A stretch of 64,000 nucleotides of DNA from Nesterenkonia populi. GTDB lineage: Bacteria; Actinomycetota; Actinomycetes; Actinomycetales; Micrococcaceae. The position numbers and the translations under genes were made by a program. Of this stretch, positions 3,949-55,560 are shown piece by piece; position 1 is the stretch's first letter, and each line of letters begins with the position of its first letter. The notes under the pieces are model-generated. The model was not told the origin of the DNA and searched no databases. It was given only the letters and a program-made list of their open reading frames with translations. The stretch is from NCBI RefSeq assembly GCF_007994735.1, contig NZ_VOIL01000001.1, positions 1,674,001-1,738,000 on the forward strand, written 5' to 3'.

Positions 3949-4617
3949 TCACTGCGTGGTGAAGCGTGCTTTCATGGTCAGCACGGATTCGGGTGGCGCG
4001 ACACCGCTTTGGGTTGCCGACGAGGTTTCGGGCTCTCCGGCAACTACGTGAAGCGGCAGCGTTCCTGCCCACACAGAATGGTCATCGTTGGGTTCGTCCG
4101 GGCTGGAAGCACGATTGTCTTTCACGCTCGCCGTCTCAAGAGGAATGCGCAGCACCATGGTGGCGGCAAGCTCTTTTTGGGTCATCGGGCGGATCTCTCG
4201 CTGCCGTTGAGGCATGAGATGCTCGGCAAGCTTCAGCAAGGCAGCCTCTTTCTTCTGGGCCGAGACAACTGATGCTCGCCCATAGATCACCGCTGCCCGG
4301 TAACGCATCGAACTGTCGAACAGCGAGCGGGCGTACATGATGCCGTCCAAATGAGTCACGTTCACACAGAATTCCTGACCTTCGGCGACGTCGCGGAAGA
4401 ACGCGCTCCCGGTGGATCCGTGAATGAGGATCGAATCACCGTCTCGGGCGAAGCCCACCGGCAACGCCATGGGACATCCGTGCCGGACGATGGACAGGTG
4501 CGCGACCAATGCTTGATCCAGAACTGCGTACAAGGCCCGGCGGTCGGTCTGCTGATAGTGGGACATGCGGCCCACACGGGTACGTCCATCTTTAGGAAGG
4601 GCAGATAACTTTGGCAT
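3949..4617 (-). CDS. Pyridoxamine 5'-phosphate oxidase-family (Nim-like flavin) protein
   Basis: 222 residues with the FMN split-barrel pattern of the PNPOx-like family: GRTRVGR and YQQTDRRALYAVLDQALVAHLSIV at the N-terminus, then PVGFARDGDSILIHGSTGSAFFRD, CVNVTHLDGIMYARSLFDSSMRYRAAVIYG. Members bind FMN and reduce or oxidise small molecules; some reduce nitroimidazoles. Start ATG 4617 is preferred over ATG 4566 because the family keeps an RTR segment before the barrel. It is divergent from a MocR-type regulator 83 bases away, an arrangement often seen when the regulator controls vitamin B6-linked or flavin-linked genes. Confidence 0.8.
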   Translation of the reverse strand: MPKLSALPKDGRTRVGRMSHYQQTDRRALYAVLDQALVAHLSIVRHGCPMALPVGFARDGDSILIHGSTGSAFFRDVAEGQEFCVNVTHLDGIMYARSLFDSSMRYRAAVIYGRASVVSAQKKEAALLKLAEHLMPQRQREIRPMTQKELAATMVLRIPLETASVKDNRASSPDEPNDDHSVWAGTLPLHVVAGEPETSSATQSGVAPPESVLTMKARFTTQ

Positions 4618-4700
4618 GACCCCCAGCCTGGACCCCCATCTGGTCCATCACATAGGCCAATTTCCCGCTATCCAGCTAGACCAGTGGAAGAGTAAGGGTT
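4618..4700. promoter_or_regulatory. Shared divergent promoter region with possible MocR operator
   Basis: This 83-base gap separates the flavoprotein gene from the MocR gene. It contains CTGGTCC (4640-4646) and an imperfect inverted partner TAGACCAG (4677-4684). MocR/PdxR regulators commonly bind repeated half-sites in such gaps. The operator call is an inference from this symmetry. Confidence 0.35.
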
Positions 4701-6113: not shown

Positions 6114-6172
6114 CCGTTCTTCCACGGCCCTGCCAGTTTTGGTCCTTGGTTCATTCAGCCCGGTACGGGGCC

Positions 6173-6188
6173 GTAACCTCCGGGTAAC
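6173..6188. promoter_or_regulatory. GlnR-like nitrogen-control box
   Basis: Two GTAAC half-sites are separated by exactly 6 bases (GTAAC-N6-GTAAC), the spacing of actinobacterial GlnR boxes. It lies 35 bases upstream of the fmdB start, before a nitrogen-releasing amidase, which fits nitrogen control. That GlnR itself binds is inferred. Confidence 0.5.
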
Positions 6189-6223
6189 AGTGCCTGACTA
6201 GCGTCATGGGGCAGGAGGTTCCT

Positions 6224-6505
6224 ATGCCGCTGTATGAATTCCGATGCGCCCGCTGCGGGGTCTTCGACTCCCACCATTCCATGGCTGATGTGCCCCGAGA
6301 GCGGGGCTGTCCCCAGTGCGCGGACAGATCTCGCCGCGTCTTCACCGCCGTCGGCCTCACCCGGCTCGGCAGCGCCCAGGCGAAGGCCATCGACCGTGCC
6401 CAGAAGTCCGCCTCCGAGCCCGAGGTGGTCACCGGAGCGGCAGGCCGGCCTCGTGCCACGCCTGTCACCAACGATCCGCGTCACCAGAAGCTGCCGCGGC
6501 CTTAG
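6224..6505 (+). CDS. fmdB: FmdB-family zinc ribbon protein
   Basis: 93 residues. MPLYEFRC at the start and two knuckles, C8-x2-C11 and C29-x2-C32, define the FmdB zinc ribbon. The family is named for a gene in the formamidase region of Methylophilus and is proposed to regulate or assist formamidase expression; its biochemical role is not established. The start is ATG 6224 because GGAGG lies just before it; the upstream in-frame ATG at 6206 lacks such a site. The formamidase gene follows 54 bases later, so the two are likely one transcript behind the GlnR-like box. Confidence 0.85.
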   Translation: MPLYEFRCARCGVFDSHHSMADVPRERGCPQCADRSRRVFTAVGLTRLGSAQAKAIDRAQKSASEPEVVTGAAGRPRATPVTNDPRHQKLPRP

Positions 6506-38613: not shown

Positions 38614-38800
38614 TGGCACGAAGGTGGCACGCGCACACCTTCCGGGTGCAAGCAGAGCGGACTGCGAGCCCTATTTTGGCTCGGTGACCCCGTCAGTCTC
38701 GTGCCACAACGTGCCATAGAGGGTTCACGGAATGACGTAAAACACTTTGTCAGACCCGGTTTCAGGGGCTCTGTGAGACCTAGTGGCACGAAGTGGCACG
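38614..38800. repeat. Three pairs of TGGCACG repeats, probable integrase arm sites
   Basis: TGGCACG occurs at 38614-38620 and 38625-38631 (direct), CGTGCCA at 38700-38706 and 38710-38716 (inverted), and TGGCACG at 38784-38790 and 38794-38800 (direct). Each pair has a 10-11 base period, one helical turn. This is how tyrosine integrase arm-type sites are arranged around an att core, and the integrase gene starts 40 bases later. Confidence 0.6.
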
Positions 38801-38840
38801 GCGGTCCGCTCCAGTCCATCCGAGACCTGGGGAGGACCCG

Positions 38841-40154
38841 ATGACGGCCACGACGGATCGAAAGACACGCTCACGACGGGAAGGCTGGGGGAGCCTGCGC
38901 AAGCTCTCCTCGGGTCGGTGGCAGGCAAGGTACCCCGGGCCAGACGGACAGACCTATACGGCCCGGACCGAGGACGATAAGCCGCTGACCTTCCTGACCA
39001 AGACCGACGCACGAACCTGGCTGGCCAACGTCCATACACAGATCGCCCGAGGACAATGGGAACCCCCGGCCGTGGTGGCGGCTCGTCGACGGGCAGAGGC
39101 CGAGGCGGAGAGGGCGCGGACCCTCGGTTTCGCTGAATATGCGGAGCGCTGGATGGAAATGATCCGTACCCAGCCCAACCGCAGCGGCAAGAAGCGTTCC
39201 GAAGGGACGATCCGGTCCTACCAGAGCAAGGTCAGCGGATACCTCATACCGGAGTTCGGAGATACACCGCTGCGGGACATCGACGCCGCACGTATCAAAG
39301 TGATGACCGATCGGCTGGATGCGATCCCTTCACCGTTGAACCCGAAGTCCAAGTTCAACGGAGTCACCCGGCCAGTGCTGGCGGTGCTGATGATGATCCT
39401 GCGCCAAGCCGCCCGGGACGGAATCATCCCAGCAGCACCCCCGGTCTCAGTGCCGAAGCAGGAATCTGTCCGCTACGACTCCGACCACGCCGAGACTGAC
39501 GACGTCGCCAGACCCGACCAGGTGGAGGCCTTGTACGACGCCACACCTGAGCATTTCGGGATCATGGTGCTGCTGGCCGCGTGGTGTCAGCTCAGGCGAG
39601 GGGAGTGCTTGGGTCTGCAGCGTCGGGACATCATCTGGCATGAGGACGGCACCGCGACCCTTTACGTCCATCGTCAGCTTAACGCCAACACTGGTGACCT
39701 GACCATGCCGAAGACCGAGGCCGGCAAACGCCCGCTGAGCGTCCCCGACATCATGCTCCACCGTCTGAGGAAGCACCTGGAAAGCAATGTGGCGCCCGAG
39801 GCGAAAGCACCCGTGGTGCCAACAACACGGCGGGGCAGTGTCCCCTTGTCGAACACCCGGTGGGGGTACATATGGGCCGAAGTCCGTGAGAAGGTCAACG
39901 ATCTGCCCCACCGTTATCGCTTCCACGACCTGCGCCATACGGGACTTACTATCTTCGCCCAAGAGGGAGCGACACTGGCCGAGCTGATGCGCCGCGGAGG
40001 TCACTCAGACATCCGAGTCGTCCTGCGCTACCAGCACAGCACCATGGCGCGGGACCGGGAGCTGGCTGAGCGAATGAGCAGAACGGCTCAGGCCAAGATC
40101 GAGGCCCGAAAGAAGGCAGATAAGGAGTGCCAGGGCCGAGATGGACACCTATGA
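38841..40154 (+). CDS. Tyrosine recombinase / site-specific integrase
   Basis: 437 residues. An N-terminal AP2-like arm-binding domain (SGRWQARYPGPDGQTYTART, 25-45), a SAM-like core-binding domain (~95-200) and a catalytic domain with Arg253 (LRRGE), Lys291, His362-x2-Arg365 (HDLRH), His388 (GGHSD) and the nucleophile Tyr397 (RYQH). It integrates and excises the element. ATG 38841 follows GGAGG with five bases between; an earlier in-frame start lacks a site. The excisionase gene follows after 35 bases, so both are probably co-transcribed. Confidence 0.93.
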   Translation: MTATTDRKTRSRREGWGSLRKLSSGRWQARYPGPDGQTYTARTEDDKPLTFLTKTDARTWLANVHTQIARGQWEPPAVVAARRRAEAEAERARTLGFAEYAERWMEMIRTQPNRSGKKRSEGTIRSYQSKVSGYLIPEFGDTPLRDIDAARIKVMTDRLDAIPSPLNPKSKFNGVTRPVLAVLMMILRQAARDGIIPAAPPVSVPKQESVRYDSDHAETDDVARPDQVEALYDATPEHFGIMVLLAAWCQLRRGECLGLQRRDIIWHEDGTATLYVHRQLNANTGDLTMPKTEAGKRPLSVPDIMLHRLRKHLESNVAPEAKAPVVPTTRRGSVPLSNTRWGYIWAEVREKVNDLPHRYRFHDLRHTGLTIFAQEGATLAELMRRGGHSDIRVVLRYQHSTMARDRELAERMSRTAQAKIEARKKADKECQGRDGHL

Positions 40155-41643: not shown

Positions 41644-43437
41644 CTAGGTACGCGGGTGGTGTTGGAGCATGGCTTCGATCTGCTCCCGGTCGGCCCTCAG
41701 GTCGGTGGCCTCTGGTCGTTCGGTCCAGCGGCGCAGGTCGGTGATGATCGGCGGTGCCGTCCGCAAAAGGGTGACCCCGGTGCCGAAGGGCAGGGTCCTG
41801 ATCCGGTCTGGTGGCAGCACCGAGACCCGGCGAACAGATCGCTGGTTCGAGCGGGTGCCGTGATCCCCGATGGTGGTCGAATCGGTGTACTCGTCACGTT
41901 CCCCGATGAGGGTGGAGAGGTCTTGGAGGTCCCGGGAGTTCGAGGCTCCACCGAGGATGATTTTGACGATCGCGGCATCCCAGATCGCCCCGGCCTGGTT
42001 CTCTGACCACTTCTCCCTGGCCTGTGCCAGCGACTGAAGCACCGGCAGGGTGGTGATTCCGGTGCCCCCGCCTTCAGCCATCAACGTCGGCAGGCTGGGT
42101 AGGGGTGCGAGGTTGCCGATCTCATCCAGCGCCAACAACAGCGGCGGGTCCAACCGTGCACCGGGTAACCTGGCGGCCATACGCCGGGCGGTCTCAACCA
42201 GGTCTTCCACGAACGCCGCCACCAGAGAGGCAGAAGCCCCGGCGCCTGCGCCGGTGGCCAGCAGGAACAGGCTGCCTCGGTCCTGGATGAACTGCTCGGG
42301 GTCGAAGTCCTCCCCGGCCCGGGGTGAGACCGCATCCAACACCCGAGGGTCAGCCAGAGCCGACAAAGCGAGGGAGACGCCCTGCCAGATGGAATCCCGG
42401 GTCTTCGGGTCAGCTTCCAGCATGGAGGCCAGCGAGTCATCCCATCCGGTCGCCGCCCTGGGGGTGCTGGCCAGGATGGTGACCGCCTCGGCGGCGGCTG
42501 AGGGGTCCAGGGTCCAGCGGAACAACTCAGCCGGTGACCGATGATCCAACGCTGCCGCATGGAGTAGGGATTGGAGGGCGGTGCGGGTTTTGCCTTCCCA
42601 GAACCCGCCGGATTCGACACCGCCAGCGGACATGCCAGTCGCTGAAGCCAGCCCGGTGGCCCGGATCATCGCCATCAGCGGGTCCTCACACCCCCGGATA
42701 GGTGACCAGCGCATCCCCGCAGGGATGCCCTCTGCCAGGTGTTGGGGGTCGAAGACCGCTACCGGGCCGATCTTCTCCCGTGCCCGCAGTGTGGCGGTGA
42801 GATTATCCGGCCGGGTGGATGTCGTCACTACTGCCCCGGGTGCATCCAGGATCGCGTTGATGACGATGTGGAGGCCTTTACCGGATCGGGGTGGGCCGAT
42901 CAGCAGGATCGAGTCCTCCACCGAGGCCCACACCTGCTTGCCCGCAGAGGTCCCCAGCAGGTAGCCGACATCCTCGGCCCGCGGCTTCACCAGGGAAGGC
43001 CGCAGCGTCTCAGCCCGGCGTAACAGTGCTTTTGGTGTGGCGACTTTGGCGATGTCGCCACTGGTGGCGGTGCCTACCAGTCGATGCGGATCGGCTTGTT
43101 TCTGTTGGCCCCAGCGGCGCACCCGCACCCACACCCAGGTACCGGCCCCGGCCAGCCCGGCGAGCATCACCCCACTGGTTATCCAGTAGGCCACCGGATG
43201 CAGCCCCTCCGCTGCTAGCGCGGCGGCAGGACCACCAGGGCTGAACAACACCGCCAGCCCAGCAGCCGGACCAGCCTCCGGCAGTGATGCGCCGGTGATC
43301 CAAGCGGCGACAGTACCAGCGGCACGCAGGATCACCGCCACACCCGCCGTCACCATGAGCAGGATGATCAAGGCGTTAGTGACCTCATCACCCATACCCC
43401 CGGCCTGACGAGACCCCGGAGTGATACCCCGGGTCAC
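41644..43437 (-). CDS. Type IV coupling protein (VirD4/TraG-like ATPase)
   Basis: 597 residues. Two to three N-terminal membrane segments (~22-105) precede the ATPase domain with Walker A GPPRSGKG at 181-188 and Walker B LLLALDEIG. TALQSLLHAAA and ITTLPVLQSLAQAREKWSENQAGAIWD are typical of TraG/VirD4 family hexamers. It couples the relaxase-DNA complex to the secretion channel. The GTG start overlaps the upstream stop. Its partner VirB4-like ATPase lies 1.5 kb away. Confidence 0.9.
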   Translation of the reverse strand: MTRGITPGSRQAGGMGDEVTNALIILLMVTAGVAVILRAAGTVAAWITGASLPEAGPAAGLAVLFSPGGPAAALAAEGLHPVAYWITSGVMLAGLAGAGTWVWVRVRRWGQQKQADPHRLVGTATSGDIAKVATPKALLRRAETLRPSLVKPRAEDVGYLLGTSAGKQVWASVEDSILLIGPPRSGKGLHIVINAILDAPGAVVTTSTRPDNLTATLRAREKIGPVAVFDPQHLAEGIPAGMRWSPIRGCEDPLMAMIRATGLASATGMSAGGVESGGFWEGKTRTALQSLLHAAALDHRSPAELFRWTLDPSAAAEAVTILASTPRAATGWDDSLASMLEADPKTRDSIWQGVSLALSALADPRVLDAVSPRAGEDFDPEQFIQDRGSLFLLATGAGAGASASLVAAFVEDLVETARRMAARLPGARLDPPLLLALDEIGNLAPLPSLPTLMAEGGGTGITTLPVLQSLAQAREKWSENQAGAIWDAAIVKIILGGASNSRDLQDLSTLIGERDEYTDSTTIGDHGTRSNQRSVRRVSVLPPDRIRTLPFGTGVTLLRTAPPIITDLRRWTERPEATDLRADREQIEAMLQHHPRT

Positions 43438-44028: not shown

Positions 44029-44155
44029 AGTCGAACCAGATGTTATTGACTGCACGCCAGCGAGGGCACATCAGCTCCCGCAAGGGAACCAAGACGGTCG
44101 AACAGGTAATCACTAGTATGTGTTGGTGGTGTCTTGGGGCGAAGGAGGACGGAAC

Positions 44156-44800
44156 TTGATTGAAGCGTTCGAGGGAATCCCTGATTTGGTGACATTCGTA
44201 GTGTCTGTCCTCGCAGGCCTGATTTCAGTTGTTTCGTTTCTTCTGGCAAGGCGAGCAGAAAGAAGTTCTGGAGCTCTTGCGATGGACAGCAACCTTCTTC
44301 AGCTTCGAGAAATCATGCTGAGCGATGAAGTTAGGCGGGCGATGCGAACAGTCGTGTATTCGCCGCCAATCATCCGAAAGGCCGAAGAAGACTATTCCCC
44401 GTGGTCGTCCTCCCAGACTTACCTTTCCGACCAGTCGGTCAGTGAGGCAGTTCAAAAGGGCGGCGCTTCAGATCTCTACCAGTTCACCGAGGCATATGCC
44501 ACACTGGTCATGATTGTTTCTCGGATGGAGACAGCAGCGCCCCTCTCGCGTAGAGGCTTCTTGGCTAAACGATGGCGGAAACGAAGTACCGAACTGTACG
44601 GCCACCTGAATGAAATTTTGAGCGTGACTCGTGAAGCGAGGCACGAGCTGAGAAAGTTCGATCTGCTGTGGCCGCTTGGCCAGGAAACCCTGGGAGGCCC
44701 ACCCACCTTGCTTTCCGATGACTCAATAGAGTCTCAGCTCTCGCGCCTGAATAAAGTAAGGGACAATAAAAATGCCATGGAAGTAAAGCTTCCTAGCTAG
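44156..44800 (+). CDS. Single-membrane-segment cargo protein, unknown function
   Basis: 214 residues from TTG 44156, which lies 8 bases after AAGGAGG; ATG 44120 is a longer alternative. One N-terminal membrane helix (LVTFVVSVLAGLISVVSFLLA) is followed by a charged soluble domain with several helices (LLQLREIMLSDEVRRAM, LNEILSVTREARHELRKFDLLW). Codon use is clearly lower in GC than that of the transfer genes, and it lies on the opposite strand, so it was probably acquired separately. Entry exclusion or defence are possible roles, but nothing in the sequence proves them. Confidence 0.6.
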   Translation: MIEAFEGIPDLVTFVVSVLAGLISVVSFLLARRAERSSGALAMDSNLLQLREIMLSDEVRRAMRTVVYSPPIIRKAEEDYSPWSSSQTYLSDQSVSEAVQKGGASDLYQFTEAYATLVMIVSRMETAAPLSRRGFLAKRWRKRSTELYGHLNEILSVTREARHELRKFDLLWPLGQETLGGPPTLLSDDSIESQLSRLNKVRDNKNAMEVKLPS

Positions 44801-44937: not shown

Positions 44938-46425
44938 CTACGCCCTGCCGGTCATCCGGCGTGTGGTGTCGAAAGCCGCGAGTTCGTCGGGGTGGAGTTG
45001 GTGTTGGACCACGAAAGAGCGGTCCTTGATCCGCCAGAGGCCTTGTCCGACCCCGAGGGTGGGTAGCAGTCTCTGTTCGGTGCCGGTCAGCCCCAAGGTT
45101 TGTGCGGTGGTGCCGAGTTGGTCGGATTCTTGCCGGTAGACAATCCGGGTCTCCGCATTGGCCAGCAGACTGTTGGCGAGGGAGCGCATGGCGGAGCCGG
45201 CGTCGCCGACGTTGTCCAGGTCAGTGAGCTTATGGAAGACCAGCAGGTTGGCGATGCCGTAGTGGCGGGCCAGTCGCCAATGAGCATCCATGCGCCGCAG
45301 CAGTGCCGGATGGGACATAAGTCTCCAGGCTTCGTCGTAGACCACCCAGCGTTGGCCTCCATTGGGGTCGAGCAGGGCTGATTCCATCCACGCTGAGGCA
45401 CAGGTCATCAGTACTGAGATGAGGGTGCTGTTTTCGGTGACGCGGGAGAGGTCCAGGCTGATCATCGGCAGGGAGGGGTCGAACTCGACGGTGGAGGGGC
45501 CGTCGAAGAGACCCCCGAGGTCACCGGCGACCAGGCGGCGCATCGCATGCCCGACCAGCCTGCCGTCTTCTGCCAGGCGGCCGGTGGAGTCATCGGAGGG
45601 GTCGAGGATGCGGTCTACGACCATGGGCAAGATCGGCACGGAGTTCTCTGCCACGGTCTGGGTCAGGGCCAGGTCGATGGCGGTGTGCTCCAACGGAGTC
45701 AGCCCCCGGGCCAGCACGGTCTCTGCCAGTGCCCCGAGCAGGCTGCGACGGCGTGAGGCCACCGTGGTCGCCCACTCAGCGTCCGAGAGGCCACTGGGCC
45801 GGTGGCCTTCATCCAGAGGGTTGAGCCGGTTGGCCAGTCCTGCACCCAGGGCGATGGCCCTGCCGCCCACTGCCTCGGCGACCGGGGTGTGTTCCCCTTT
45901 GGGGTCGCCAGGGACATAGACCCTGCGTCCGAAGGGCAGGCTTCGGGTGTAGAGGGATTTGGCGAGGCTGGATTTGCCGGAGCCCACGATGCCTGCCAGC
46001 ACGATGTTAGGTGCGGTGATGATCCCGCGCTGGTAGAGCACCCAGGGGTCATAGACGAAGCTGGCCCCGGAGTAGAGGTCCTGGCCGATGAACATCCCAT
46101 CAGCACCCAAGCCCCCTTCAGCGAGGAAGGGATATGCCCCGGCCAGGGTGGCGCTGGTGTCCTGATGCCGCGGCAACCGAAACCGCCCCGGACTCCGTAG
46201 CGCCGCAGGTCCAGACTCACCAGCAGCGGGCAAGTACTGCCGTGCCCGCCGCTCAGCACGCTCAGCCTCAGCCTTCTGCCGGAGGGCATGTTTCTCGGCT
46301 TGGCGCTGCTGGGCGCGTAGGCGGGCAGCAGCTTCCCGGCGTTGTTTGCGTAGGCGACGACGCTCAGCAGCCGGAGCCACCAGTACTGAGGTATGCAGTC
46401 TCTCCTGGTCGGGGTCCGGGCTCAT
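44938..46425 (-). CDS. VirB4/TraE-like conjugation ATPase
   Basis: 495 residues. A long basic coiled-coil N-terminus (~20-65) precedes the ATPase domain with Walker A GIVGSGKS at 145-152, GDPKGEH, and Walker B RWVVYDEAWRLM. The pattern fits the conjugation ATPases of Gram-positive elements paired with SCO6880-type proteins; its N-terminal part is shorter than VirB4. It should power assembly and transfer at the membrane. ATG 46425 overlaps the upstream stop (ATGA). Confidence 0.85.
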   Translation of the reverse strand: MSPDPDQERLHTSVLVAPAAERRRLRKQRREAAARLRAQQRQAEKHALRQKAEAERAERRARQYLPAAGESGPAALRSPGRFRLPRHQDTSATLAGAYPFLAEGGLGADGMFIGQDLYSGASFVYDPWVLYQRGIITAPNIVLAGIVGSGKSSLAKSLYTRSLPFGRRVYVPGDPKGEHTPVAEAVGGRAIALGAGLANRLNPLDEGHRPSGLSDAEWATTVASRRRSLLGALAETVLARGLTPLEHTAIDLALTQTVAENSVPILPMVVDRILDPSDDSTGRLAEDGRLVGHAMRRLVAGDLGGLFDGPSTVEFDPSLPMISLDLSRVTENSTLISVLMTCASAWMESALLDPNGGQRWVVYDEAWRLMSHPALLRRMDAHWRLARHYGIANLLVFHKLTDLDNVGDAGSAMRSLANSLLANAETRIVYRQESDQLGTTAQTLGLTGTEQRLLPTLGVGQGLWRIKDRSFVVQHQLHPDELAAFDTTRRMTGRA

Positions 46426-47360
46426 CGAGACAGCCCCCGACCGGTACTTGTGCTGGCGGGCCGGTTCTGGCTGGCATACCAATCCCGCTGAGCTTGGGAT
46501 TCCTGATGCTTCGTCACAGAACCCAGCCGCCCCACAGCGTCCTGACTGGTGGCCCGGCGCGCACCCGCTCTGCCTGCGTAGACGGCTCCGGCTGCTGCGG
46601 CAGCACCGGCTGATGAGCCTCCCGCTGGCCCGGCCAGGCTGCGCCCACCTGCCGCGGCATATGCCAGCCCGTTGCGGCGCGGAGAGGGCTCGGCAGGCAG
46701 GGGGTCGTCAGGGGCGGGGATGGGCCGGTAGAGGGCGACGTGACCCATCTGCTGGTTATACGAGATGGTGTAGTCACCCTCGGTGATCAGATGGTCCCCA
46801 TCAGCAGCCGGGGGCTGGTCGTAGACGTAGCCGTTCTCCATCGCCGCATCAGTGGTCTCTTGACCGGTGTCCCACTGGGCAAGGTGGGTAATGCCGGCTT
46901 GGGCTCCGTCCTCATCAATGAGGTCAAGCACCCCATCGGCCTGACCACGATCGAGGAAGACCACGTTGACCCACCGCCGAGCCGCATCCTGGGCGACGGG
47001 GGTGTGTTCGGTCTGGGAGTGCCAGGCGATACGCCCTGAAGCTTGCGACGCCCGGTCAATACGGTAGCCGGCTTCCGCGACCGCCTGCGCGGCTTCAAAA
47101 AGTGCCTCTGCCGCCGCCGCTGCAGCAGCTCTACCAGCGGGCCGATAACCCTCATCAGAACTCGCTGCATCCAAATGATCCAGGTGCGCGGCGGCAAGTT
47201 GATCGAGGACCTGTTCCAAGGCACGAGTCCCACTGATCAACTCCGCGAGAACCTCATACACTTTGGAAGGATCATCGAAGCTTCGGGTGGCATGAGCGAG
47301 GCCCCGCAGCGCCTGGGATGCTTCCCCACCGTCGGCTTGGGGGTCGTTGAAGGTTGTCAT
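46422..47360 (-). CDS. Conserved element protein, helical, unknown function
   Basis: 312 residues. An Ala-rich helical N-terminal half (GRAAAAAAAEALFEAAQAVAEAGYRIDRAS) is followed by ARRWVNVVFLDRGQADGVLDLIDEDGAQAGITHLAQWD, then a Pro/Gly/Ala-rich tail. I recognise no domain with known function. ATG 47360 lies after AAGGAGGAG. It is translationally coupled to the VirB4-like gene, so it probably acts in the same transfer operon. Confidence 0.65.
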   Translation of the reverse strand: MTTFNDPQADGGEASQALRGLAHATRSFDDPSKVYEVLAELISGTRALEQVLDQLAAAHLDHLDAASSDEGYRPAGRAAAAAAAEALFEAAQAVAEAGYRIDRASQASGRIAWHSQTEHTPVAQDAARRWVNVVFLDRGQADGVLDLIDEDGAQAGITHLAQWDTGQETTDAAMENGYVYDQPPAADGDHLITEGDYTISYNQQMGHVALYRPIPAPDDPLPAEPSPRRNGLAYAAAGGRSLAGPAGGSSAGAAAAAGAVYAGRAGARRATSQDAVGRLGSVTKHQESQAQRDWYASQNRPASTSTGRGLSR

Positions 47361-47443
47361 GGTGGCTCCTCCTTGGCGGTTATGCCAGGGAGGTGAGCAC
47401 GAGGTCACCAGACCATGTCAGTGGCCCCACATAGGATGCCGAT

Positions 47444-48301
47444 ATGGCCTACACAGCGAATGTTCTCCGGGTAATGATCGCTTCACCGTCTGACATCACA
47501 CAGGCCCGAGACGCCGTCGAAGCAGCCATCCACGGGTGGAACGACGCCAACGCCGAAGCAAAGAAGACGATCCTCCAACCGTGGCGCTACGAAACATCTT
47601 CTGTCCCAATGCTGGGTGAGCATCCTCAGGCGCTGATCAACTCTCAAGGCGTAGACCGGTCAGACATTGTGTTCGCCCTCTTCGGCAGCCGGCTTGGATC
47701 ACCGACACCTGAAGCCATCTCAGGCACTGTGGAAGAAATTCAGCGAGCCAAAGATCAGAACAAGCCAGTACACCTGTACTTCTCCGCAGCACCGCACCCT
47801 AATGACGTCGACACCGAACAGCTCGCTGGCCTTCGAGAGTTCAAGGAAGAGATCAGCCAGCTGGGCCTCTTTGGGGAGTTCAACACCCCCGACCAGCTCA
47901 CCCACAAGGTGTGGAGCGCTATCGAGTACGACATCCAGAAGATCTCCTTGGGAACGCCACGCCTTGAGAATTCCCGTGGCGGAGTGCACTTCACCGCACA
48001 GGCTCAGAGTGACCGTGAGTTGCGCGATTACGACAAGAGGGGCAGACCCCGATACCGAACTCGGAACTGGATCGATGTGACAAATGCCGGAGAGACGGAC
48101 GCCGAGCAGGTCACCTTCGAGGTCGTTGGGGATGAGCCTCGCATGGACCTTATCGGCGCCCATGGTCCCACCACGATCCATGCAGGACAGACACGGCCAT
48201 TGACAGTTGGGTTTTCTGGCGGCCTACCGGGACCGGACATTCTGAGGATCCGTTGGGTCGAAGATGGGGAACCAAAGAAGAAGGACATCCACGTCGGATA
48301 G
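47444..48301 (+). CDS. DUF4062-type (TIR-like) cargo protein with C-terminal beta domain
   Basis: 285 residues. The N-terminus matches the DUF4062 pattern: LRVMIASPSDITQARDAVEAAIHGWNDANAE, then RSDIVFALFGSRLGSPTPEAISGTVEEIQRAKDQNKPVHLYFS, a flavodoxin-like alpha/beta domain related to TIR/STALD modules found in defence. After residue ~170 a second domain is rich in beta strands (WIDVTNAGETDAEQVTFEVVGDEP, VGFSGGLPGPDILRIRWVE). It is on the strand opposite to the transfer operon, and between two of its genes, so it is accessory cargo. The ATG 47444 has a weak AGGA. No effector motif is certain. Confidence 0.7.
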   Translation: MAYTANVLRVMIASPSDITQARDAVEAAIHGWNDANAEAKKTILQPWRYETSSVPMLGEHPQALINSQGVDRSDIVFALFGSRLGSPTPEAISGTVEEIQRAKDQNKPVHLYFSAAPHPNDVDTEQLAGLREFKEEISQLGLFGEFNTPDQLTHKVWSAIEYDIQKISLGTPRLENSRGGVHFTAQAQSDRELRDYDKRGRPRYRTRNWIDVTNAGETDAEQVTFEVVGDEPRMDLIGAHGPTTIHAGQTRPLTVGFSGGLPGPDILRIRWVEDGEPKKKDIHVG

Positions 48302-48304
48302 TCC

Positions 48305-49774
48305 TTAGAGCTTTCTGCACAGAGGTAGGGCTGCGGCGGTGAAGGCTGCTGCTTGTTGGCCCACTAGGAGGCGGGTTTCGCAGGAGGCTTGGATCGCAGC
48401 CTGCTCGATTGCCGTCACATTCGCATCCAGTTCCTCCACGGTGGATGCGGTGGCTGAGATAAGTCCGGTGTAGCGCAGGACGCCGTGGCCGGCGGTGAGG
48501 TCTGCTTCTTGTTGGAGGACGTCGTCGAACTCGGCCAGGTCTGCGGCGTCTTCGATCTGGCCGATCTTGGCCCGTTGGGCCTGGTCGCTGATGTGCTCGA
48601 CCTTCTTCTTCCGTATGTCCCTGGCGGCTTGGTCGGAGCGCATCGGGGTACACAGCAGGCTGAACGAGCGTTGGATACCGGTGGAGAGCAGTACCGGTGA
48701 GAGGAATTCGGGGTGGACCATCGACCGGGGCCACTCGCTGACCCAGAGCACCGCGTGGTGGGCTGAGTCGGTGCGCAGCCTCGGCCAGGTCTCGTTGACA
48801 GCTACCGGTCCGGCGGTGGCCAGGCTTTGACCGAGTTCCCCGTGCCGTTGGAGGACCGGTGCGATGGCCGGATCGTAGGCCGAGCGTAGGATCACCGCGA
48901 TCTCACCAGGAGTCAGCCACCCCGATGGGGTGAGATCGGCGGTGCGCAGCGCGGTGGTCAGAGTGTTCATTTCTTGGCGAAGGACACCTGCAGCCCCACG
49001 GATGCCGCCTCCGGCGGTGCGTATTTGCCGGGCGGCGGCCTTCATATCCAACGAGAGGCTGATCGTGGTGGCGTGGCGTTCCCCAGCCGGACCAGCCCGG
49101 TCAATCAGCTCTGCGTAGGTCTCAGCGGCCCACGATCCGTCGTCGGTGCCGTGTTTGGCCCACCACTCCGCCAACCCGGTCCCGGAGTCCGGCAGGGTGC
49201 GCTCTAAGACTTGCAGAGTGGCGACCCGGCCGGAGCGGCACACCGTTGCCAGCACCCGGCCCCAGGCGGTGACTCGGCGTTGCTGCTCAGCAGGGTCTAA
49301 CAGTACGAAGGCGGGGTGGGAGACCTCGGTGACCACGGTCAGAGTGTTCGCGGTGGGGTCGTGGATCATCCCGGCCCCGGTCTCGGGGTCGGTGTATTCC
49401 CGCAGCCGGGCCATATCCCCAGGCAACGCCAGAGTCCCCTCCGGCCGGGGTGTAGTAATCCGCCGTCGGTACAACAACTGCCCGCCGGTGGTGCGCCAGA
49501 CCCACCAGAAGCACACCGGCAGCCACTCCACCACCGGGCGTCCGGCAACGGGTATCCACGTCAAGGCGGCGGCGAGGACCCAGATGGGTGCGGTGTAGGC
49601 CAGCAGGATGCCGCCCCCGGCGTAGAGGGCACCCACAAGGGACAGTCCACCGATCCCGAGGGTGATCAACTGAGTCAGGGAGAGACCGAGCAGGATGCCG
49701 CGGCGGGTCAGCCGGGAGAACTTCACCGGCACCAACTCCACCGACGAACCCGTCGATGTTGTCTCGCTAGGCAT
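48305..49774 (-). CDS. SCO6880-family conjugation protein
   Basis: 489 residues from ATG 49774, or GTG 49786 (which directly abuts AGGAAGGGG). Two N-terminal membrane segments (ILLGLSLTQLITLGIGGLSLVGALY, APIWVLAAALTWIPV) are followed by a large soluble region with ERHATTISLSLDMKAAARQIRTAGGG and RSDQAARDIRKKKVEHISDQAQRAKIGQIEDA. This is the SCO6880 family, which accompanies the transfer ATPase in actinobacterial elements and may be its membrane platform. It overlaps the TrbL-like gene, so the two are coupled. Confidence 0.85.
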   Translation of the reverse strand: MPSETTSTGSSVELVPVKFSRLTRRGILLGLSLTQLITLGIGGLSLVGALYAGGGILLAYTAPIWVLAAALTWIPVAGRPVVEWLPVCFWWVWRTTGGQLLYRRRITTPRPEGTLALPGDMARLREYTDPETGAGMIHDPTANTLTVVTEVSHPAFVLLDPAEQQRRVTAWGRVLATVCRSGRVATLQVLERTLPDSGTGLAEWWAKHGTDDGSWAAETYAELIDRAGPAGERHATTISLSLDMKAAARQIRTAGGGIRGAAGVLRQEMNTLTTALRTADLTPSGWLTPGEIAVILRSAYDPAIAPVLQRHGELGQSLATAGPVAVNETWPRLRTDSAHHAVLWVSEWPRSMVHPEFLSPVLLSTGIQRSFSLLCTPMRSDQAARDIRKKKVEHISDQAQRAKIGQIEDAADLAEFDDVLQQEADLTAGHGVLRYTGLISATASTVEELDANVTAIEQAAIQASCETRLLVGQQAAAFTAAALPLCRKL

Positions 49775-49782
49775 GGCCTGTT

Positions 49783-51273
49783 TCACCCCTTCCTTCGCCT
49801 GTACACATCAGCGGTCGGGTCCTGTGGCTGAGGCCCTGAGTGTGGTGGCCGTGGGGGTGGCGGGTCGGCAGGCTGGCGCGGGGTCTTCGGCACAGGCTGC
49901 CCAGGGGTCCTGTCTTGTCCGCCCCTGGGTCCTTGGGCGGCGGGGACGCCGGAGGGTCCGGGGTGCTGGCCCTCCTGGCCCGGGCGCGGGCCGCCACCGG
50001 TATTGGTGTCGGCATCGGCGGCGGTTTCTGCCTGATTACCCAGGGCTTGGCCTGCTTTGGGGCCGGCTTCGGCGGAGTCCTTGGCGACTTTGGCCCCGAT
50101 CACCGCCGCAGCAGCAGGACCCCCAGCCGCCGCGCCACCGCCTGCCGCACCACCACCAGCAGTTCCGCCGCCGGTAGCTGTGGTGCCTGATCCGGCGGTG
50201 GCACCTGGACCACCTGGACCGCCGGGAGGCGGGCCTCCGCTGGGTTTTCCTCCTGTGGGTTTCTGCCCACCCGGGCCACCACTGTTGGGTGGTGCGTCAC
50301 TGTTGCCGTCGAGGACTTTCTTCGGCCCCTCGCCCTGGGGCTTGTTCGGGGTGGGCACCGGACGGTTCAACGACTGTTTGGCTTCCTGCTCAGCACCGAT
50401 GGAGTGGTACATGTCGGCTCCGACGAAGGAAAGGAACCGGTAGGTCATATACGGGGCAAAGGCAGCCATCAACATCAGCACCACCCCGGCCAGCGGATCA
50501 CTGACCGAAGCCAAGTCCGCCTCGATCGGTGCGGAGACTTGGGTGATGGCCACCAGAAACATCACGGTGAGCACGAGTTTGGAGACGGCTAGGGCGATCA
50601 CGAACATGGCCCATTTGGCGATCCAGCCTTTGCTGGCATCCCAGGAGGCCCCAGCGAAAGCCAACGGGGCAAGGACGACGGCGACGAGGATCAGGGCTTT
50701 GCGGACCAGTAGGGAGAGCCAGACGATCGCTGCGGCCGAGATGGCAAGGCCTGCCATGAAGATGGTGATGATTGCACCCACACCGGGGGTGGCAATATTG
50801 ATGGCTGTCAGTCCTGCGGCGAGAGCGGCGATTTTGTTGCCCATGGATTCGGTGGTTTCTCCGGCGGCTTGGATGATCCCCAGACTCAGCTGATCTACGA
50901 CTTCCAGCAGCAGGGCGGTCAGGGTGACCGCGATGAAGGAGCCGAGTACGGATTTCGCCAGCCCGAGGGCGGCTCTGGTGAGTGCGCCGGGGTCCCGGCG
51001 GATCAGGCCGGTGATCAGTTGCAGGCAGAAGAACAGCAACATCACGAAGACCGCGATGCCGAAGACGATGTTGTAGACCCCCAGGTACTCGTCACTGGTG
51101 ACATCAACCAGGGTGGTGGTATCGAACACGGCCCAGACGGCTTCAAAGAGCCAGCCGGCGGCAGCCCCCATGGCTTGGGCGAGCCAGTCGAATGGGGCTG
51201 AGATGAGGCTGGCGGCTGCTTCGCCTGCTGTATCGCAGACGTTGGAGATGACGGGAACATCGCACAGGCCCAC
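49783..51273 (-). CDS. TrbL/VirB6-like polytopic conjugation protein
   Basis: 496 residues. Six to eight membrane segments lie in the first 300 residues (IVFGIAVFVMLLFFCLQLITGLI, ALGLAKSVLGSFIAVTLTALLLEVV, FMAGLAISAAAIVWLSLLV, AMFVIALAVSKLVLTVMFLVAI). The last ~190 residues form a Gly/Pro/Gln-rich, low-complexity tail. The layout is that of TrbL/VirB6 proteins, which line the DNA channel. GTG 51273 is the start, after AAGGAGTG. It lies next to two pilin-like genes and the SCO6880 gene. Confidence 0.8.
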   Translation of the reverse strand: MGLCDVPVISNVCDTAGEAAASLISAPFDWLAQAMGAAAGWLFEAVWAVFDTTTLVDVTSDEYLGVYNIVFGIAVFVMLLFFCLQLITGLIRRDPGALTRAALGLAKSVLGSFIAVTLTALLLEVVDQLSLGIIQAAGETTESMGNKIAALAAGLTAINIATPGVGAIITIFMAGLAISAAAIVWLSLLVRKALILVAVVLAPLAFAGASWDASKGWIAKWAMFVIALAVSKLVLTVMFLVAITQVSAPIEADLASVSDPLAGVVLMLMAAFAPYMTYRFLSFVGADMYHSIGAEQEAKQSLNRPVPTPNKPQGEGPKKVLDGNSDAPPNSGGPGGQKPTGGKPSGGPPPGGPGGPGATAGSGTTATGGGTAGGGAAGGGAAAGGPAAAAVIGAKVAKDSAEAGPKAGQALGNQAETAADADTNTGGGPRPGQEGQHPGPSGVPAAQGPRGGQDRTPGQPVPKTPRQPADPPPPRPPHSGPQPQDPTADVYRRRKG

Positions 51274-51319: not shown

Positions 51320-51676
51320 TTAGACCTGTTGGCCGACGTTCCAGAAGAAGTTGATCAATGTGACGCTGGCTCCGCAGATGATCGCCGCCCCGCAGGAGAC
51401 CAGCACGCCGATCTTTCCTCGGCCTGCCAGATGCGGATTGGAGCTGTTAGCTCCAAAGCCCCACACGATCGCCGAGATGATCAGCGCCAACACGGAGAGC
51501 ACCAGGCCGATGGTCATGACCGCCCCGACGATCGTGCGCAGCTGGCTGATCCCCGGCAGCCCGGATTCATTCGGGCTGATGTCGATCTGAGCGACCACCA
51601 TCGGGTCAGCCACCAGGGTGGGGGTGGTGAGTGTTGCGGTGTGGATGGCCTCGGAGAGGGCGATGAGAGTGTCCAC
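51320..51676 (-). CDS. DUF6112-type pilin-like membrane protein A
   Basis: 118 residues. Two hydrophobic segments (TIVGAVMTIGLVLSVLALIISAIVWGFG and IGVLVSCGAAIICGASVTLINFFW) with a short polar loop give the VirB2/TrbC-like hairpin. It resembles protein B at 51770-52036 along its whole length. GTG 51676 follows AAGGAG. In the element it would be a channel or pilus subunit. Confidence 0.72.
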   Translation of the reverse strand: MDTLIALSEAIHTATLTTPTLVADPMVVAQIDISPNESGLPGISQLRTIVGAVMTIGLVLSVLALIISAIVWGFGANSSNPHLAGRGKIGVLVSCGAAIICGASVTLINFFWNVGQQV

Positions 51677-51718
51677 GACAGATGCTCCTTCAGATGAGAA
51701 ACGAGTGGGTCGTGAAGG

Positions 51719-51769: not shown

Positions 51770-52036
51770 TTAGAGTTGTTCGCCGAGGTCGATCAGCCAG
51801 TTCATCCAGGTCATCGCCCCGCCGGCGAGGATCGCCGCTCCCAGGCAGACCAGCACCCCGGTCCTGCCCTTAGCGGCGGAGGCTGGGTTCCCGTGTGAGG
51901 AGGCCACACCCCAAATGATGGCGGAGACGATGAGCATCAACACTGCGATCACTAGGACGAAGGTCAGCAGAGCCCCGACCACCTCGCGCAGGTCGGTGAT
52001 CCCGGAGAGACCCTCGAAATCAGGAAACACGTTCAT
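51770..52036 (-). CDS. DUF6112-type pilin-like membrane protein B
   Basis: 88 residues, shorter than its neighbour. LREVVGALLTFVLVIAVLMLIVSAIIWGVASSHGNP and TGVLVCLGAAILAGGAMTWMNWLIDLG correspond segment by segment to protein A: both have a small residue-rich hairpin, an SxxNP loop and a KGRTGVLV / RGKIGVLV stretch. Two related subunits may assemble together. ATG 52036 is the start. Confidence 0.72.
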   Translation of the reverse strand: MNVFPDFEGLSGITDLREVVGALLTFVLVIAVLMLIVSAIIWGVASSHGNPASAAKGRTGVLVCLGAAILAGGAMTWMNWLIDLGEQL

Positions 52037-52181
52037 ACCGAACAGGTATGCCCAACTGACCTAGATGGCCTGGTTCCAGTTGTGTGTTGACTGTGCGCCC
52101 AAGAGTCCCTCGATATGGTTCTACCGGAGATTTCCTTGCTTTCCATGACGCGCAATCCGGTTGCACCCCGACGGTGTTCTG

Positions 52182-52688
52182 CTAGTCACGTCTTTTCATC
52201 TGAGGAGCGTCCGCTGGGACCACCTGATCGCTGTGGTCCACAATGAAGAGGCTGTTCCGCAGCCAATACACGCTCCGTCCGAAACGAGTGATCAGCAGGC
52301 TTGCGGCGTATATGACAACTCCAAAGGCCCAATAAGGACGATATTCGTCCACGAAGATCGACAAGATAGGAATGACGGCACAGAAGAGGCAGGACAGGAT
52401 AATCGCGGTCCAGTTCCGCTTGAGAACCTTATGGTGCTGAGCTCGCATGTCCTTCAGCAGAGGATCAGCGCTCTGATACGTCATGGTGCACGAGAAAGTT
52501 GCCGACGCAAGGGCCAGACCAGCTAGTGTAGCGACCCCTGTGTAGATCCCGTGGCGAACAGTGATGTCCTCCGGGAGCCAGTCATCACCCCACAGGATCC
52601 ACGCAAAGAGCGATAGAAGGGGGAGTACTTGGTCGAAGGCAGGACGGTTGGCGATCGTGTAGCGCAGCTTCTTGGCCACGATGATCAC
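52182..52688 (-). CDS. Four-TM membrane protein of a two-gene cargo cassette
   Basis: 168 residues with four hydrophobic segments near 18-36, 45-70, 93-114 and 118-137 (FAWILWGDDW, IYTGVATLAGLALASATFSCTMTY, WTAIILSCLFCAVIPILSIFV, YWAFGVVIYAASLLI) and a polar C-terminal tail. The GTG start overlaps the upstream stop (GTGA), coupling it to the soluble gene. Codon use is lower in GC than that of the transfer genes around it. No known family is recognisable. A small membrane protein fed by a cytosolic partner is a common layout of defence systems, though none is matched here. Confidence 0.65.
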   Translation of the reverse strand: MIIVAKKLRYTIANRPAFDQVLPLLSLFAWILWGDDWLPEDITVRHGIYTGVATLAGLALASATFSCTMTYQSADPLLKDMRAQHHKVLKRNWTAIILSCLFCAVIPILSIFVDEYRPYWAFGVVIYAASLLITRFGRSVYWLRNSLFIVDHSDQVVPADAPQMKRRD

Positions 52689-53593
52689 CCCTGCTCGAGT
52701 TCTCTGATTCTCTGGTTGATCTCTGGGCTGATCTCCACCAGCCCATTGAGCAGGTCCGAATACAACCTTCGCTCTGGTCCGACAGCATTGAGCTCAAACT
52801 TGGTAGCCATCTTATGTGCCACCAGGGACAACTCCTCGGTCAGCTCCTCGTCAATCACAGCTTCAGCGCGTGTCTTCGACTTCTCTGTGATCGTGCGCTT
52901 GAGATCCCCAGTCACCAGATTGAGGAACTTGCGCATGGTCTGCTGGCCGCGAGCTTCCTTGGGGAGCTTGATCTTGATCTCAATCTCAACATCCTGCCCT
53001 ACGGCATCAGCTATCCGATCTGCGTAACCCGCTGGCCCCTCAGAGGGCTCGTCCAAGGAGAACAAGTCTCGGTGGGTGGAGAAGCGTGAGGAGAAGCTAA
53101 CAAGCCCCTTTGCTTCGCGCAATCGATCAATCTGTGGGCGGTCCATGTAGGGCCCCACTTTCCAGTACTCCGACTCAGCACCGGGAAAGAAGTGTTGGAG
53201 GAATGGTTCAAGAGCATTAGCTTGTGGTGCGCTCGTGCCTCCGGAGGCGATCATGAAGATGTGCTTGGTTTCGGAGAACAGCACGGCGCTTGAGTAATAG
53301 GCATTGCCCTCTTCTTCGTCGTCCATCATGAGATCTTTGACGGAAGCGCTACTTTCATCAAGCTGCGTCATGAAGGACCCATCCACTGGCTTGTGAACAC
53401 CCAGCAGGTATGTGCCATTCACTTCGATGGGGTCGTAGAGAACACCGTTGAGCTTCCGCTCCTTGAGGGGGTATTCCTCTTTGAACTCTCGTAGAGTGCG
53501 ATTCCAATCCCTTGATTTCAACCTACGAGAGGACCCCTTTGAGAGAAGCTTGGCCTCATAGACGTGTGCGACCTTTTCTTTAGGTTTGACCAT
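52685..53593 (-). CDS. Soluble protein of the two-gene cargo cassette, unknown function
   Basis: 302 residues. No membrane segment. The N-terminus is basic (KLLSKGSSRRLKSRDWNRTL), then comes an alpha/beta stretch with YYSSAVLFSETKHIFMIASGGTSAPQANALEPFLQHFFP and a helical C-terminal half with VEIEIKIKLPKEARGQQTMRKFLNLVTGDLKRTITEKSKTRAEAVIDEEL. No nuclease, kinase or nucleotidyltransferase motif could be seen. The ATG follows GGAG by 8 bases. It is the first gene of the cassette and is coupled to the four-TM gene. Base composition marks both as later acquisitions in the element. Confidence 0.65.
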   Translation of the reverse strand: MVKPKEKVAHVYEAKLLSKGSSRRLKSRDWNRTLREFKEEYPLKERKLNGVLYDPIEVNGTYLLGVHKPVDGSFMTQLDESSASVKDLMMDDEEEGNAYYSSAVLFSETKHIFMIASGGTSAPQANALEPFLQHFFPGAESEYWKVGPYMDRPQIDRLREAKGLVSFSSRFSTHRDLFSLDEPSEGPAGYADRIADAVGQDVEIEIKIKLPKEARGQQTMRKFLNLVTGDLKRTITEKSKTRAEAVIDEELTEELSLVAHKMATKFELNAVGPERRLYSDLLNGLVEISPEINQRIRELEQG

Positions 53594-53913
53594 TGTTCAA
53601 GCTCCTTCGCTAGGTCGCTGACAGCCTGGGGCGAGAAACCCCCGGCACTTATCCCACTACGTGGAGGGCGAGATTAGACGGTTATAGGTCGTCCCACGGC
53701 CTAGTACGGTTTGCAAGCTTGCCCCTCAGCAGTAAGTCAGATTCTACGAATCAGCCTATGTGAGGCCCAGGCAATTTTGTGTGACCCGTTACTGACTATG
53801 GCCTCGTAGTGCTAGACGGCAGCCGCGGGGGAGCAATCACTGCGTCCGGGATGGACGTCTATTTCCTATTCTCTTCGATCGAGGTTGCTGACAGTCGGGC
53901 CAACCCCGGGGGA
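53594..53913. other. Intergenic region before the cargo cassette
   Basis: 320 bases that probably hold the promoter of the two-gene cassette. I see no gene and no clear promoter motif. Confidence 0.45.
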
Positions 53914-55560
53914 TCACTCGGTGACGGTGAGGTGGAGGTGGTCATAGTGACCACCTGTGGGGTCGGTGGGGTCGTGCATGCCGCCGCCGTCGTAGGGCCG
54001 CCAGCCTTCATCGGCCTGTGAGGTGACCCAGATTTTGCCGTCGAAGATCAGGTATTCGACCCCGAGGGTTTCGGCGTGGTCTTTGACCCAGTTGGTGACC
54101 TCCCACCCGGCTTGCCGCTGGGCCTCGGTGGGGAAGCTGCCGATGGGGTTGCCGAAGGTGACATCGCAGGCCCGCCCCAGCGGGTGCTCGGAGTCCTGGC
54201 CGGGGCGTTCGTCCCAACAAACCCAGGAAGTCTCCGGGAAGGCGTCGCTGGTCTGCTGGTAGAGGTGCAGCATCCGGGCGGTGATCTGGCCACCGGTGGT
54301 GGGGTCATCGACCATCTGCGACCCATCACCATCACTTGGCTCCGGCTCGCCGGCTTCCGCTGCCTGGTCGGGTTCGGTGGGGCAGTCCTCATTGTCAGCA
54401 CCAGCCGGTTGGGTGCTGCTGCCTGATCCCCGGGGGGCGGGGTGGGCGTCGTGGGTCTCCAACCATGGTTCAGGGTCGGTGTGTTCCCCGGTCTCGCGGC
54501 CGCCGGGCCAGATTTCTAAGTGCAGGTGCGGGCCAGTGGACTGCCCCGAGTTGCCCACATCCCCAATGTGATCCCCGGCGGTGACGGTCTCACCGGGCTG
54601 GACGTGGATGCCGGTCTCCCACATATGGATATACACCGACGACACCGCTTCGCCACCGATGGTGTGATCAATGACGACCACCCCGCCGCGGGCCTCGTTG
54701 TAGTCAGCGGAGGCGACTACTCCATCGGCGATGGCATAGATCGGTGTCCCATCCGGTGCTGCCCAATCGGTACCAGCATGGAAGCTGTCTTCCCTCGTCA
54801 CCGGGTGGACCCGTGGCCCGTAGTCGCTGGTCTGAACCGCAGCATCCTCCGGTAATGGGAAGACCACCCTGCCGGACTCCGGCACCGAGGCTGGCCCGGC
54901 TTCACTGCCGGTGGTGAGTGCTTCCAGGATGGTCTCTGCGACCGGTTCATAGTTCTGATACCGGTCCGGGTAGGCCGAGACCTCCACGGCTTGGGCGACC
55001 TCGCCCTTATCCATCTCCTGCCACGCAGGGATGTCGAGCAACCCACGGGGTGAACCACTGTTGGGGCCGCCGGGGCCGCCGAAGAACGCTTGGGCTTGGT
55101 AGACCGGGTCCATGAGGTCTTCAACGGAGCCCCACCCGGTGGACGGGCGCATCTGAAACAACCCCAGGCTGTCGTGATCAGAGCCATCGCCGTCGTTGGG
55201 ATAGTCAGCAGAGTCCGGGTAGGCGGCTTCGTTGGAGAGCTGGCGGAGGGTGGATTCAGTCAGTGCGGCCATCAGTGCGATCACCAGCCCATCCCGGCTC
55301 ACCCCTTCGATGCCGCTGCCGGTGTCGATGATCGTGGCCGCATGGCCCAGCTGCTCCTGCTTCAGGGTGAAGGTCTCCCCATTGGTGGTGGTGACCTCCA
55401 GTTCGTCGGGGACTTCCCCGATGGTGAGGTGCGGGCTTGCTCCGGGCACAGTGCAGGAGGCTCCGGCACCTGGGCTCATCAATGCGCCCACTGAGACCAG
55501 GGCGACGGAGGGGCCGAGCATGGCGAGTAGGACCAGGATGATGGCTGCTTCCTTCAACAC
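53914..55560 (-). CDS. Three-part cell-wall hydrolase (lytic, M23 peptidase, C-terminal peptidase-like)
   Basis: 548 residues. After an N-terminal membrane anchor (AIILVLLAMLGPSVALVSVGAL), residues ~85-215 look like a lysozyme-type region (ALTES with Glu102, then SLGLFQMRPSTGWG). An M23/LytM domain follows (~230-360) with zinc ligands His261 and Asp265 (FHAGTDW) and His345/His347 (GPHLHLE). The C-terminal ~140 residues (ARMLHLYQQ, HPLGRACDVTFG, GHYDHLHLTV) resemble a zinc carboxypeptidase fold. It should open peptidoglycan for the transfer channel. It starts at GTG 55560 after GGGAGG. Confidence 0.82.
   Translation of the reverse strand: MLKEAAIILVLLAMLGPSVALVSVGALMSPGAGASCTVPGASPHLTIGEVPDELEVTTTNGETFTLKQEQLGHAATIIDTGSGIEGVSRDGLVIALMAALTESTLRQLSNEAAYPDSADYPNDGDGSDHDSLGLFQMRPSTGWGSVEDLMDPVYQAQAFFGGPGGPNSGSPRGLLDIPAWQEMDKGEVAQAVEVSAYPDRYQNYEPVAETILEALTTGSEAGPASVPESGRVVFPLPEDAAVQTSDYGPRVHPVTREDSFHAGTDWAAPDGTPIYAIADGVVASADYNEARGGVVVIDHTIGGEAVSSVYIHMWETGIHVQPGETVTAGDHIGDVGNSGQSTGPHLHLEIWPGGRETGEHTDPEPWLETHDAHPAPRGSGSSTQPAGADNEDCPTEPDQAAEAGEPEPSDGDGSQMVDDPTTGGQITARMLHLYQQTSDAFPETSWVCWDERPGQDSEHPLGRACDVTFGNPIGSFPTEAQRQAGWEVTNWVKDHAETLGVEYLIFDGKIWVTSQADEGWRPYDGGGMHDPTDPTGGHYDHLHLTVTE

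Follow-up and report, generated by a model that had tools for sequence, protein, structure and literature searches.

The exclusion system RexAB of phage lambda, whose study reportedly reaches back to Benzer's T4 rII work, combines a gene for a DNA-binding sensor with a downstream gene for a small membrane protein containing four transmembrane (TM) segments, which halts the growth of infected cells; the two products comprise 279 and 144 residues. Here we describe a gene pair resembling RexAB from Nesterenkonia populi (RefSeq assembly GCF_007994735.1, contig NZ_VOIL01000001.1), located in a stretch of 64,000 nucleotides at positions 1,674,001 to 1,738,000 of the forward strand (the window), where a soluble protein of 302 residues (gene A) and a four-TM protein of 168 residues (gene B) are encoded within a conjugative element. 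This cassette is, in our judgement, likely to be a RexAB-type module for abortive infection (phage exclusion) that an integrated conjugative element carries as exchangeable cargo.

In the portion of PMC12894663 concerned with these systems, only five RexAB-like systems are counted as described, all of them presented as phage- or prophage-encoded. Among actinophages, a soluble protein followed by a four-TM protein, as in the window, is encoded by Sbash (gp30/31), CarolAnn (gp44/43), Toast (gp42/41) and Butters (gp30/31), with exclusion reported for Butters and, in the relevant sections of PMC6426606 and PMC6426596, for Sbash and CarolAnn; these systems differ from the window pair in representing two other sequence lineages and in having been described from phages. 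RexABpp of Pseudomonas putida (PP_5643/5644), likened here by description, is prophage-borne, unlike the window pair, and similarly consists of a DNA-binding RexA-fold protein and a four-TM protein, which according to passages of PMC12894663 damage the membrane and arrest growth. There is some precedent for Rex-like genes outside phages: a section of PMC11077077 already mentions orphan RexA homologues that lack a neighbouring RexB and/or lie outside any integrated prophage, and syntenic Butters-type pairs are reported from actinobacterial genomes (M. abscessus, Mycobacterium sp. and Rhodococcus) in a passage of PMC7542560 that leaves their carrier unstated. A CI-type repressor adjoins the Rex genes in lambda, CarolAnn and Toast but not in Sbash or Butters; given that it is not universal, repressor location does not define the Rex class.

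Predicted structures and likeness to RexA and RexB

Both open reading frames (ORFs; Table 1) were present where the sequence-only reading of this DNA had placed them, with the TGA stop of A overlapping the GTG start of B as GTGA. That reading had also described their composition as unlike that of the transfer genes, which was borne out for overall guanine-plus-cytosine (GC) content (0.538 for A and 0.558 for B, versus 0.616-0.676 in the 13 transfer or backbone genes measured between 44938 and 61685) and nearly so for GC at third codon positions (0.653 and 0.680, versus 0.714-0.820 in 12 of the 13), the thirteenth backbone gene (46422-47408) sharing the A value of 0.653. Two further likely cargo genes are also GC-poor (0.529 and 0.578).

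In the AlphaFold model of A, a mostly beta N-terminal domain precedes an alpha/beta domain, and a long helix forms the C-terminus. When this model was used in a fold search, lambda RexA was the best match, 5 Z units above the next entry and covering model residues 7-302, and the soluble component is thereby predicted to adopt the RexA-type split-domain fold. A single pairwise comparison of the A profile with lambda RexA gave an expect value (E) of 6.4e-4 (score 32.5; residues 64-179 on 54-167), compared with 0.034 for reversed RexA and 0.073 for the best of 74 unrelated ORFs (78 were scored, of which four A-family members were dropped). We regard this sequence likeness, which is weak and nearly collinear, as suggestive. 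A combined alignment of five phage RexA-like proteins (A8) gave E 0.16 against the A-family alignment and 0.13 against lambda RexA; because A8 mixes two lineages, single comparisons were used instead. In these comparisons the actinophage RexA-like proteins form two other groups, matching neither lambda RexA nor A, and by this test, of a 38-row profile against single sequences or a five-row mixture, the window family appears nearer to lambda RexA than the actinophage proteins are.

The AlphaFold2 model of B (mean predicted local distance difference test score 81.6) contains helices at residues 2-14, 16-36, 42-72, 76-113 and 118-156, i.e. one short helix followed by four long ones, bearing out the earlier description of a four-helix membrane protein paired with a soluble one. 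Hydropathy analysis identified four segments of at least 1.2 (1.25, 1.44, 2.81 and 1.35); as only two of these reach 1.4, three of the four must be considered weak. Judged by eye, the N-terminus and the TM2-TM3 loop are basic and the TM1-TM2 loop is acidic.

Direct sequence-model searches returned no convincing family match for A or B. The view that neither protein belongs to a named family therefore stands for sequence models and fails for the fold, A being predicted to share that of lambda RexA; on this basis RexAB, which the sequence-only reading did not name, becomes the closest known system.

A number of results weigh against this assignment. The other four AlphaFold models of A were less confident (68-80), global TM-scores between the A model and RexA were 0.33-0.35, and the hhalign probability for A and RexA was just 27.8%. 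Neither A nor B produced a match to Pfam RexA (PF15969) or RexB (PF15968) up to E 1, whereas the lambda controls matched these models at 1e-97 and 8.5e-92. The RexA-like proteins of CarolAnn, Sbash and Sejanus, like those of Toast and Butters, were undetectable from A by sequence, the membrane partners from the same five phages scored 0.047-0.25 against B (reversed controls of the B targets, 0.037-0.65), and a fold search with B yielded no solved-structure match (best E 0.41). Lambda RexB ranked top for B among non-family multi-TM ORFs at 0.003, but the likeness is weak because the next ORF already scores 0.0093; of the 44 multi-TM ORFs tested, 13 belonged to the family and were separated out by eye together with lambda RexB and several known phage partners, and the ORF at 0.0093, from genome G088, had been recruited by the B profile itself. 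Also, no sigma-70-like promoter was found in a scan of the 320-bp leader upstream of A (0.9 expected by chance), and no CI-type repressor was seen beside A and B among their window neighbours, which are transfer genes. When sequences of solved structures were searched by profile, A did not recover RexA and B recovered nothing convincing. Finally, an E of 3.3e-5 between B and a mixed RexB-like set was discarded, as only lambda RexB scores when the members are taken singly.

Homologues, pairing and the cargo slot

Homologues of the pair are sparsely distributed. A protein search identified six other close relatives of A, with no name given for any, and for B only itself. Distant relatives of A were detected in 3 of 146 other genomes (147 with its own), and, when the class was searched with a profile, in 3 of another 393 genomes (394 with its own). 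A ten-sequence A profile, scored against only the 7995 candidates sharing most words, reached 32 proteins, including members from Streptomyces and Kitasatospora and three labelled DUF6731 (PF20505), a family of unknown function in Pfam; seven named Streptomyces loci were taken for neighbourhood study. A itself had no match in plasmids, phages or viral contigs, nor in a first scan of genome contigs, and the sole match among 50,697 records, gp42 of Gordonia phage RavenCo17, was reached via the intermediates P0028 (E 6e-48) and P0009 (E 2e-16). Two of the three labelled proteins, on rescanning, gave 28.2 and 28.3 bits with DUF6731 (cut-off 27), which matches 7 of the 38 A-family alignment members at E<=1 (best 2.5e-7). 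Neither A nor RavenCo17 gp42 matches this model, A being linked to it through intermediates only, and no match at E<=0.001 was found in 396 genomes of the phylum.

A co-occurrence survey, as proposed by the sequence-only reading, found the two genes together at all 14 loci outside the window (L002-L015), with an ORF containing four hydrophobic segments directly downstream of A on the same strand, as in the window. Such retention indicates pairing beyond chance. Partner ORFs overlap A by up to 47 bp or begin as much as 54 bp beyond it, span 164-184 residues at 13 of the 14 loci, and possess four segments of at least 1.2 in every case and of at least 1.4 in 11. The RavenCo17 partner (L015 7001-7999), which lacks annotation in its record, comprises 332 residues with the four segments within the first 170, its end running antisense into the integrase gene; residues 1-197 matched a B profile built without it at E 2.7e-14. 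Across the 147 genomes, the B profile matched the window genome, the same three A-bearing genomes and two more, the B sequences of the first four matched genomes being inside the profile. One additional match, in another species of the genus (G019; L068 4399-4938), lies beside transposase-like genes on a contig that stops 267 bp past B, such that an A partner would fall off the contig. The other, in G088, was judged spurious, being weak and limited to 45 positions.

Closer examination of these neighbourhoods revealed several settings. In RavenCo17, an immunity repressor (gp43) is followed by the overlapping A relative, B and, on the other strand, an integrase, with a helix-turn-helix (HTH) protein diverging on the other side of the block; a CI-type repressor neighbour is thus present here and absent from the window, and the repressor-A-B layout corresponds to the cI-rexA-rexB plan of lambda. 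Parts of this region recur in 83 Gordonia phage records, but coverage of the query reaches 80% in RavenCo17 alone, consistent with the pair region being a variable insert there too. Locus L003 (HTH, A, B, IrrE-type peptidase) shares its order with phage Sejanus (HTH, RexA-family protein, small protein, IrrE-like), at L005/L073 an HTH-like protein (just below cut-off) precedes A and B with a serine recombinase farther on, and the L007 pair adjoins an HmaC-like gene. FtsK-type proteins occur within about 6 kb in 2 of the 7 Streptomyces loci (the two with an ORF tested), from which we infer a fit with actinomycete integrative elements. Neither of the patterns that the sequence-only reading had named as contrary to it, homologues occurring mainly as single core-genome genes or belonging to transfer or housekeeping families, was seen at these loci.

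Based on 12 strong peptidase matches outside the window, and leaving out two partial ones (G014:C8 and G005:C20), ten sister-element stretches from six genomes of the genus were surveyed for the interval between the M23 peptidase and pilin-like genes, which in the window measures 1,877 bp and contains A and B. This junction was readable in eight stretches (five genomes). In four of them (L058, L064, L065 and L066) the slot is empty, the two genes lying at most 17 bp apart. The other four carry different cargo, comprising a Gabija pair (GajA, GajB; L067 2461-5143), CopC/CopD-type genes (L061), a 276-residue protein without a family match (L062, 4630-5460) and a tyrosine-phosphatase-like gene (L063, 2550-3002). 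In L059 and L060, where the pilin gene was not reached, the peptidase is followed by an ORF that by eye looks CopD-like or by an insert of recombinase type. The L060 insert (1726-6282) is transposon-like, adjoins the peptidase and contains recombinase-type genes, together with a protein that we take to be small multidrug-resistance-like. No match to A or B was found in any of the ten stretches; related elements therefore manage without the pair, four of them joining the flanking genes directly. As empty and differently filled sisters show, the pair sits in an exchangeable cargo slot of a conjugative element, as the sequence-only reading had proposed, and its carriage is most likely for phage defence. 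The leader upstream of A is probably the pair's own regulatory region.

In common with lambda RexAB, the window pair has a predicted RexA fold in A, a putative sensor gene preceding a four-TM gene, and proteins of similar size; unlike lambda RexAB, it falls below detection by the Pfam RexA and RexB models and lies among transfer genes rather than behind cI. Given a fold, pairing and setting that are Rex-like as judged from sequence, yet a position outside the Pfam RexA, RexB and DUF6731 families, we refer to it as RexAB-type, a separate sequence lineage.

Proposed mechanism and rival explanations

Under the exclusion model, drawn from the Rex systems of lambda, Sbash, CarolAnn and P. putida, A would act as a RexA-fold sensor, with a predicted split globular domain (N-terminal half and C-terminal helix) arranged around a second domain that would correspond to the RexA dimerisation domain, and by analogy may clamp DNA as a dimer. 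The trigger would be an early phage protein or an intermediate of phage replication, whereupon A would act on B, probably via the basic TM2-TM3 loop, in which R82, N92 and W93 are near-invariant in the B-family alignment. In the sections of PMC6426606 and PMC6426596 on Sbash gp31, two changes in the predicted cytoplasmic TM2-TM3 loop, the position corresponding to this loop of B, rendered defence defective. Judging from RexB, Sbash gp31 and P. putida RexB, oligomers of B might form an inner-membrane channel or lesion, and the resulting loss of membrane potential or integrity would stop growth and abort the infection. Alternatively, polarity may be reversed as in Butters, where, as told in a passage of PMC12894663, the effector role falls to the soluble protein, which the membrane protein keeps in check.

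Were A and B instead a RexA-like regulator pair tuning the integrated or excised state of the element, phage exclusion would be a side effect. The RavenCo17 pair does adjoin its repressor, and PMC11077077, the RexA structure paper, describes lambda RexA as modulating the CI-Cro switch and leaves undecided whether Rex homologues exist for exclusion or exclude phages only incidentally. However, no repressor was seen next to the window pair, whose neighbours are transfer genes, all ten sister stretches lack the pair, including the four with directly joined flanking genes, and the same slot also takes Gabija and copper-type genes; we consider a regulatory role unlikely. Rated slightly lower still is an unrelated soluble-plus-membrane defence system, for which the RexA match would be a coincidence of a common beta fold. 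Such an architecture is shared by several systems, e.g. Kiwa (KwaA/KwaB), which combines a soluble protein of about 300 residues with a four-TM protein in the reverse gene order relative to the window pair, and cyclic-oligonucleotide-based antiphage signalling systems (CBASS) with a four-TM effector, whose S_4TM model scores a sub-threshold 13.8 bits on B. These likenesses, which together with retrons had been raised by the sequence-only reading, did not hold up: neither A nor B was matched up to E 1 by PADLOC models, those of KwaA and KwaB among them, S_4TM has a cut-off of 26.9, KwaB was absent among the fold matches listed for A, and no nucleotidyltransferase was noticed by eye among the neighbouring ORFs. 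Furthermore, the RexA match of A stands clear of other entries across residues 7-302 and is echoed by sequence. Least probable, and in our view very unlikely, is a transfer accessory, acting for example in entry exclusion or conjugation-channel assembly. Small membrane proteins are typical exclusion factors and the pair shares a strand with the peptidase and pilin-like genes between which it lies, but those genes adjoin directly in the four empty sisters, and homologues are found next to an HmaC-like gene and within the immunity region of a phage.

With RexAB-type exclusion as the preferred reading, what is new is that a Rex-type pair occupies a conjugative-element cargo slot that in a sister contains Gabija, with no lysogeny switch observed; no Rex system borne by a conjugative element was among the matches listed in literature searches for RexAB with conjugative or integrative elements. 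Such a setting separates the exclusion and switch functions and makes the question of Rex function testable. Tentatively, and with somewhat less than even confidence, we suggest that Rex is at root a free-standing mobile anti-phage module rather than an accessory of the prophage switch, such that the window, Streptomyces and Gordonia-phage pairs, DUF6731-type proteins and lambda RexAB would form one superfamily moving between conjugative elements, other islands and temperate phages, carried by prophages for defence. If so, the copy on the conjugative element, unaccompanied by CI and Cro, would reveal directly which function is under selection. Proteins around DUF6731, a name not met in the literature searched, also gain an interpretation in terms of structure and function.

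Conjugative element and neighbouring genes

Table 1. Features of the gene pair and its surroundings (window positions).
Feature	Position	Strand	Remarks
Gene A, RexA-like soluble protein	52685..53593	-	302 aa, ATG start
Gene B, RexB-like four-TM membrane protein	52182..52688	-	168 aa, GTG start
Leader upstream of A	53594..53913	-	320 bp; absent from empty sister sites
Spacer between B and pilin-like gene	52037..52181	-	145 bp; cargo side of junction
M23 peptidase	53914..55560	-	cargo-slot border upstream of A in gene direction
Small hydrophobic protein, presumably pilin-like	51770..52036	-	88 aa; cargo-slot border downstream of B
Second pilin-like protein	51320..51697	-	44% identity to first
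SCO6880-family and SCO6881-like transfer proteins	48305..51273	-	

The setting of A and B is a conjugative element. The SCO6880-family protein was matched at E 2.2e-136, and the SCO6881-like and VirB4-like proteins score under their curated cut-offs. To the left of the pair, we take the ORFs at 38793-40154 and 41644-43437 to encode a tyrosine integrase and a VirD4/TraG-like coupling protein, respectively. No direct repeat marking the element ends was found, a single 15-bp match being judged chance.

Variation among four sister stretches (L078-L081) identified two further cargo slots of the element. The second slot holds a DUF4062 protein gene (47444-48301, plus strand; PADLOC candidate PDC-S60, E 6.8e-25) inserted between the SCO6880 gene and that of a 328-residue protein, an interval of about 0.8-1.2 kb in L078 and L079 that contains almost nothing in L080 and L081. 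The third, between the genes for the VirB4-like and a 197-residue protein, holds a gene for a 226-residue protein (44120-44800, plus strand; GC 0.529) with no convincing family match; this interval contains almost nothing in L079 and L080 but measures about 0.5 kb in L078 and about 7 kb in L081. To the right of the window, a helicase and OLD-like ATPase pair, Gabija-like by eye, was also observed (L076 3041-6378), after which a large relaxase-like ORF begins at 6703.
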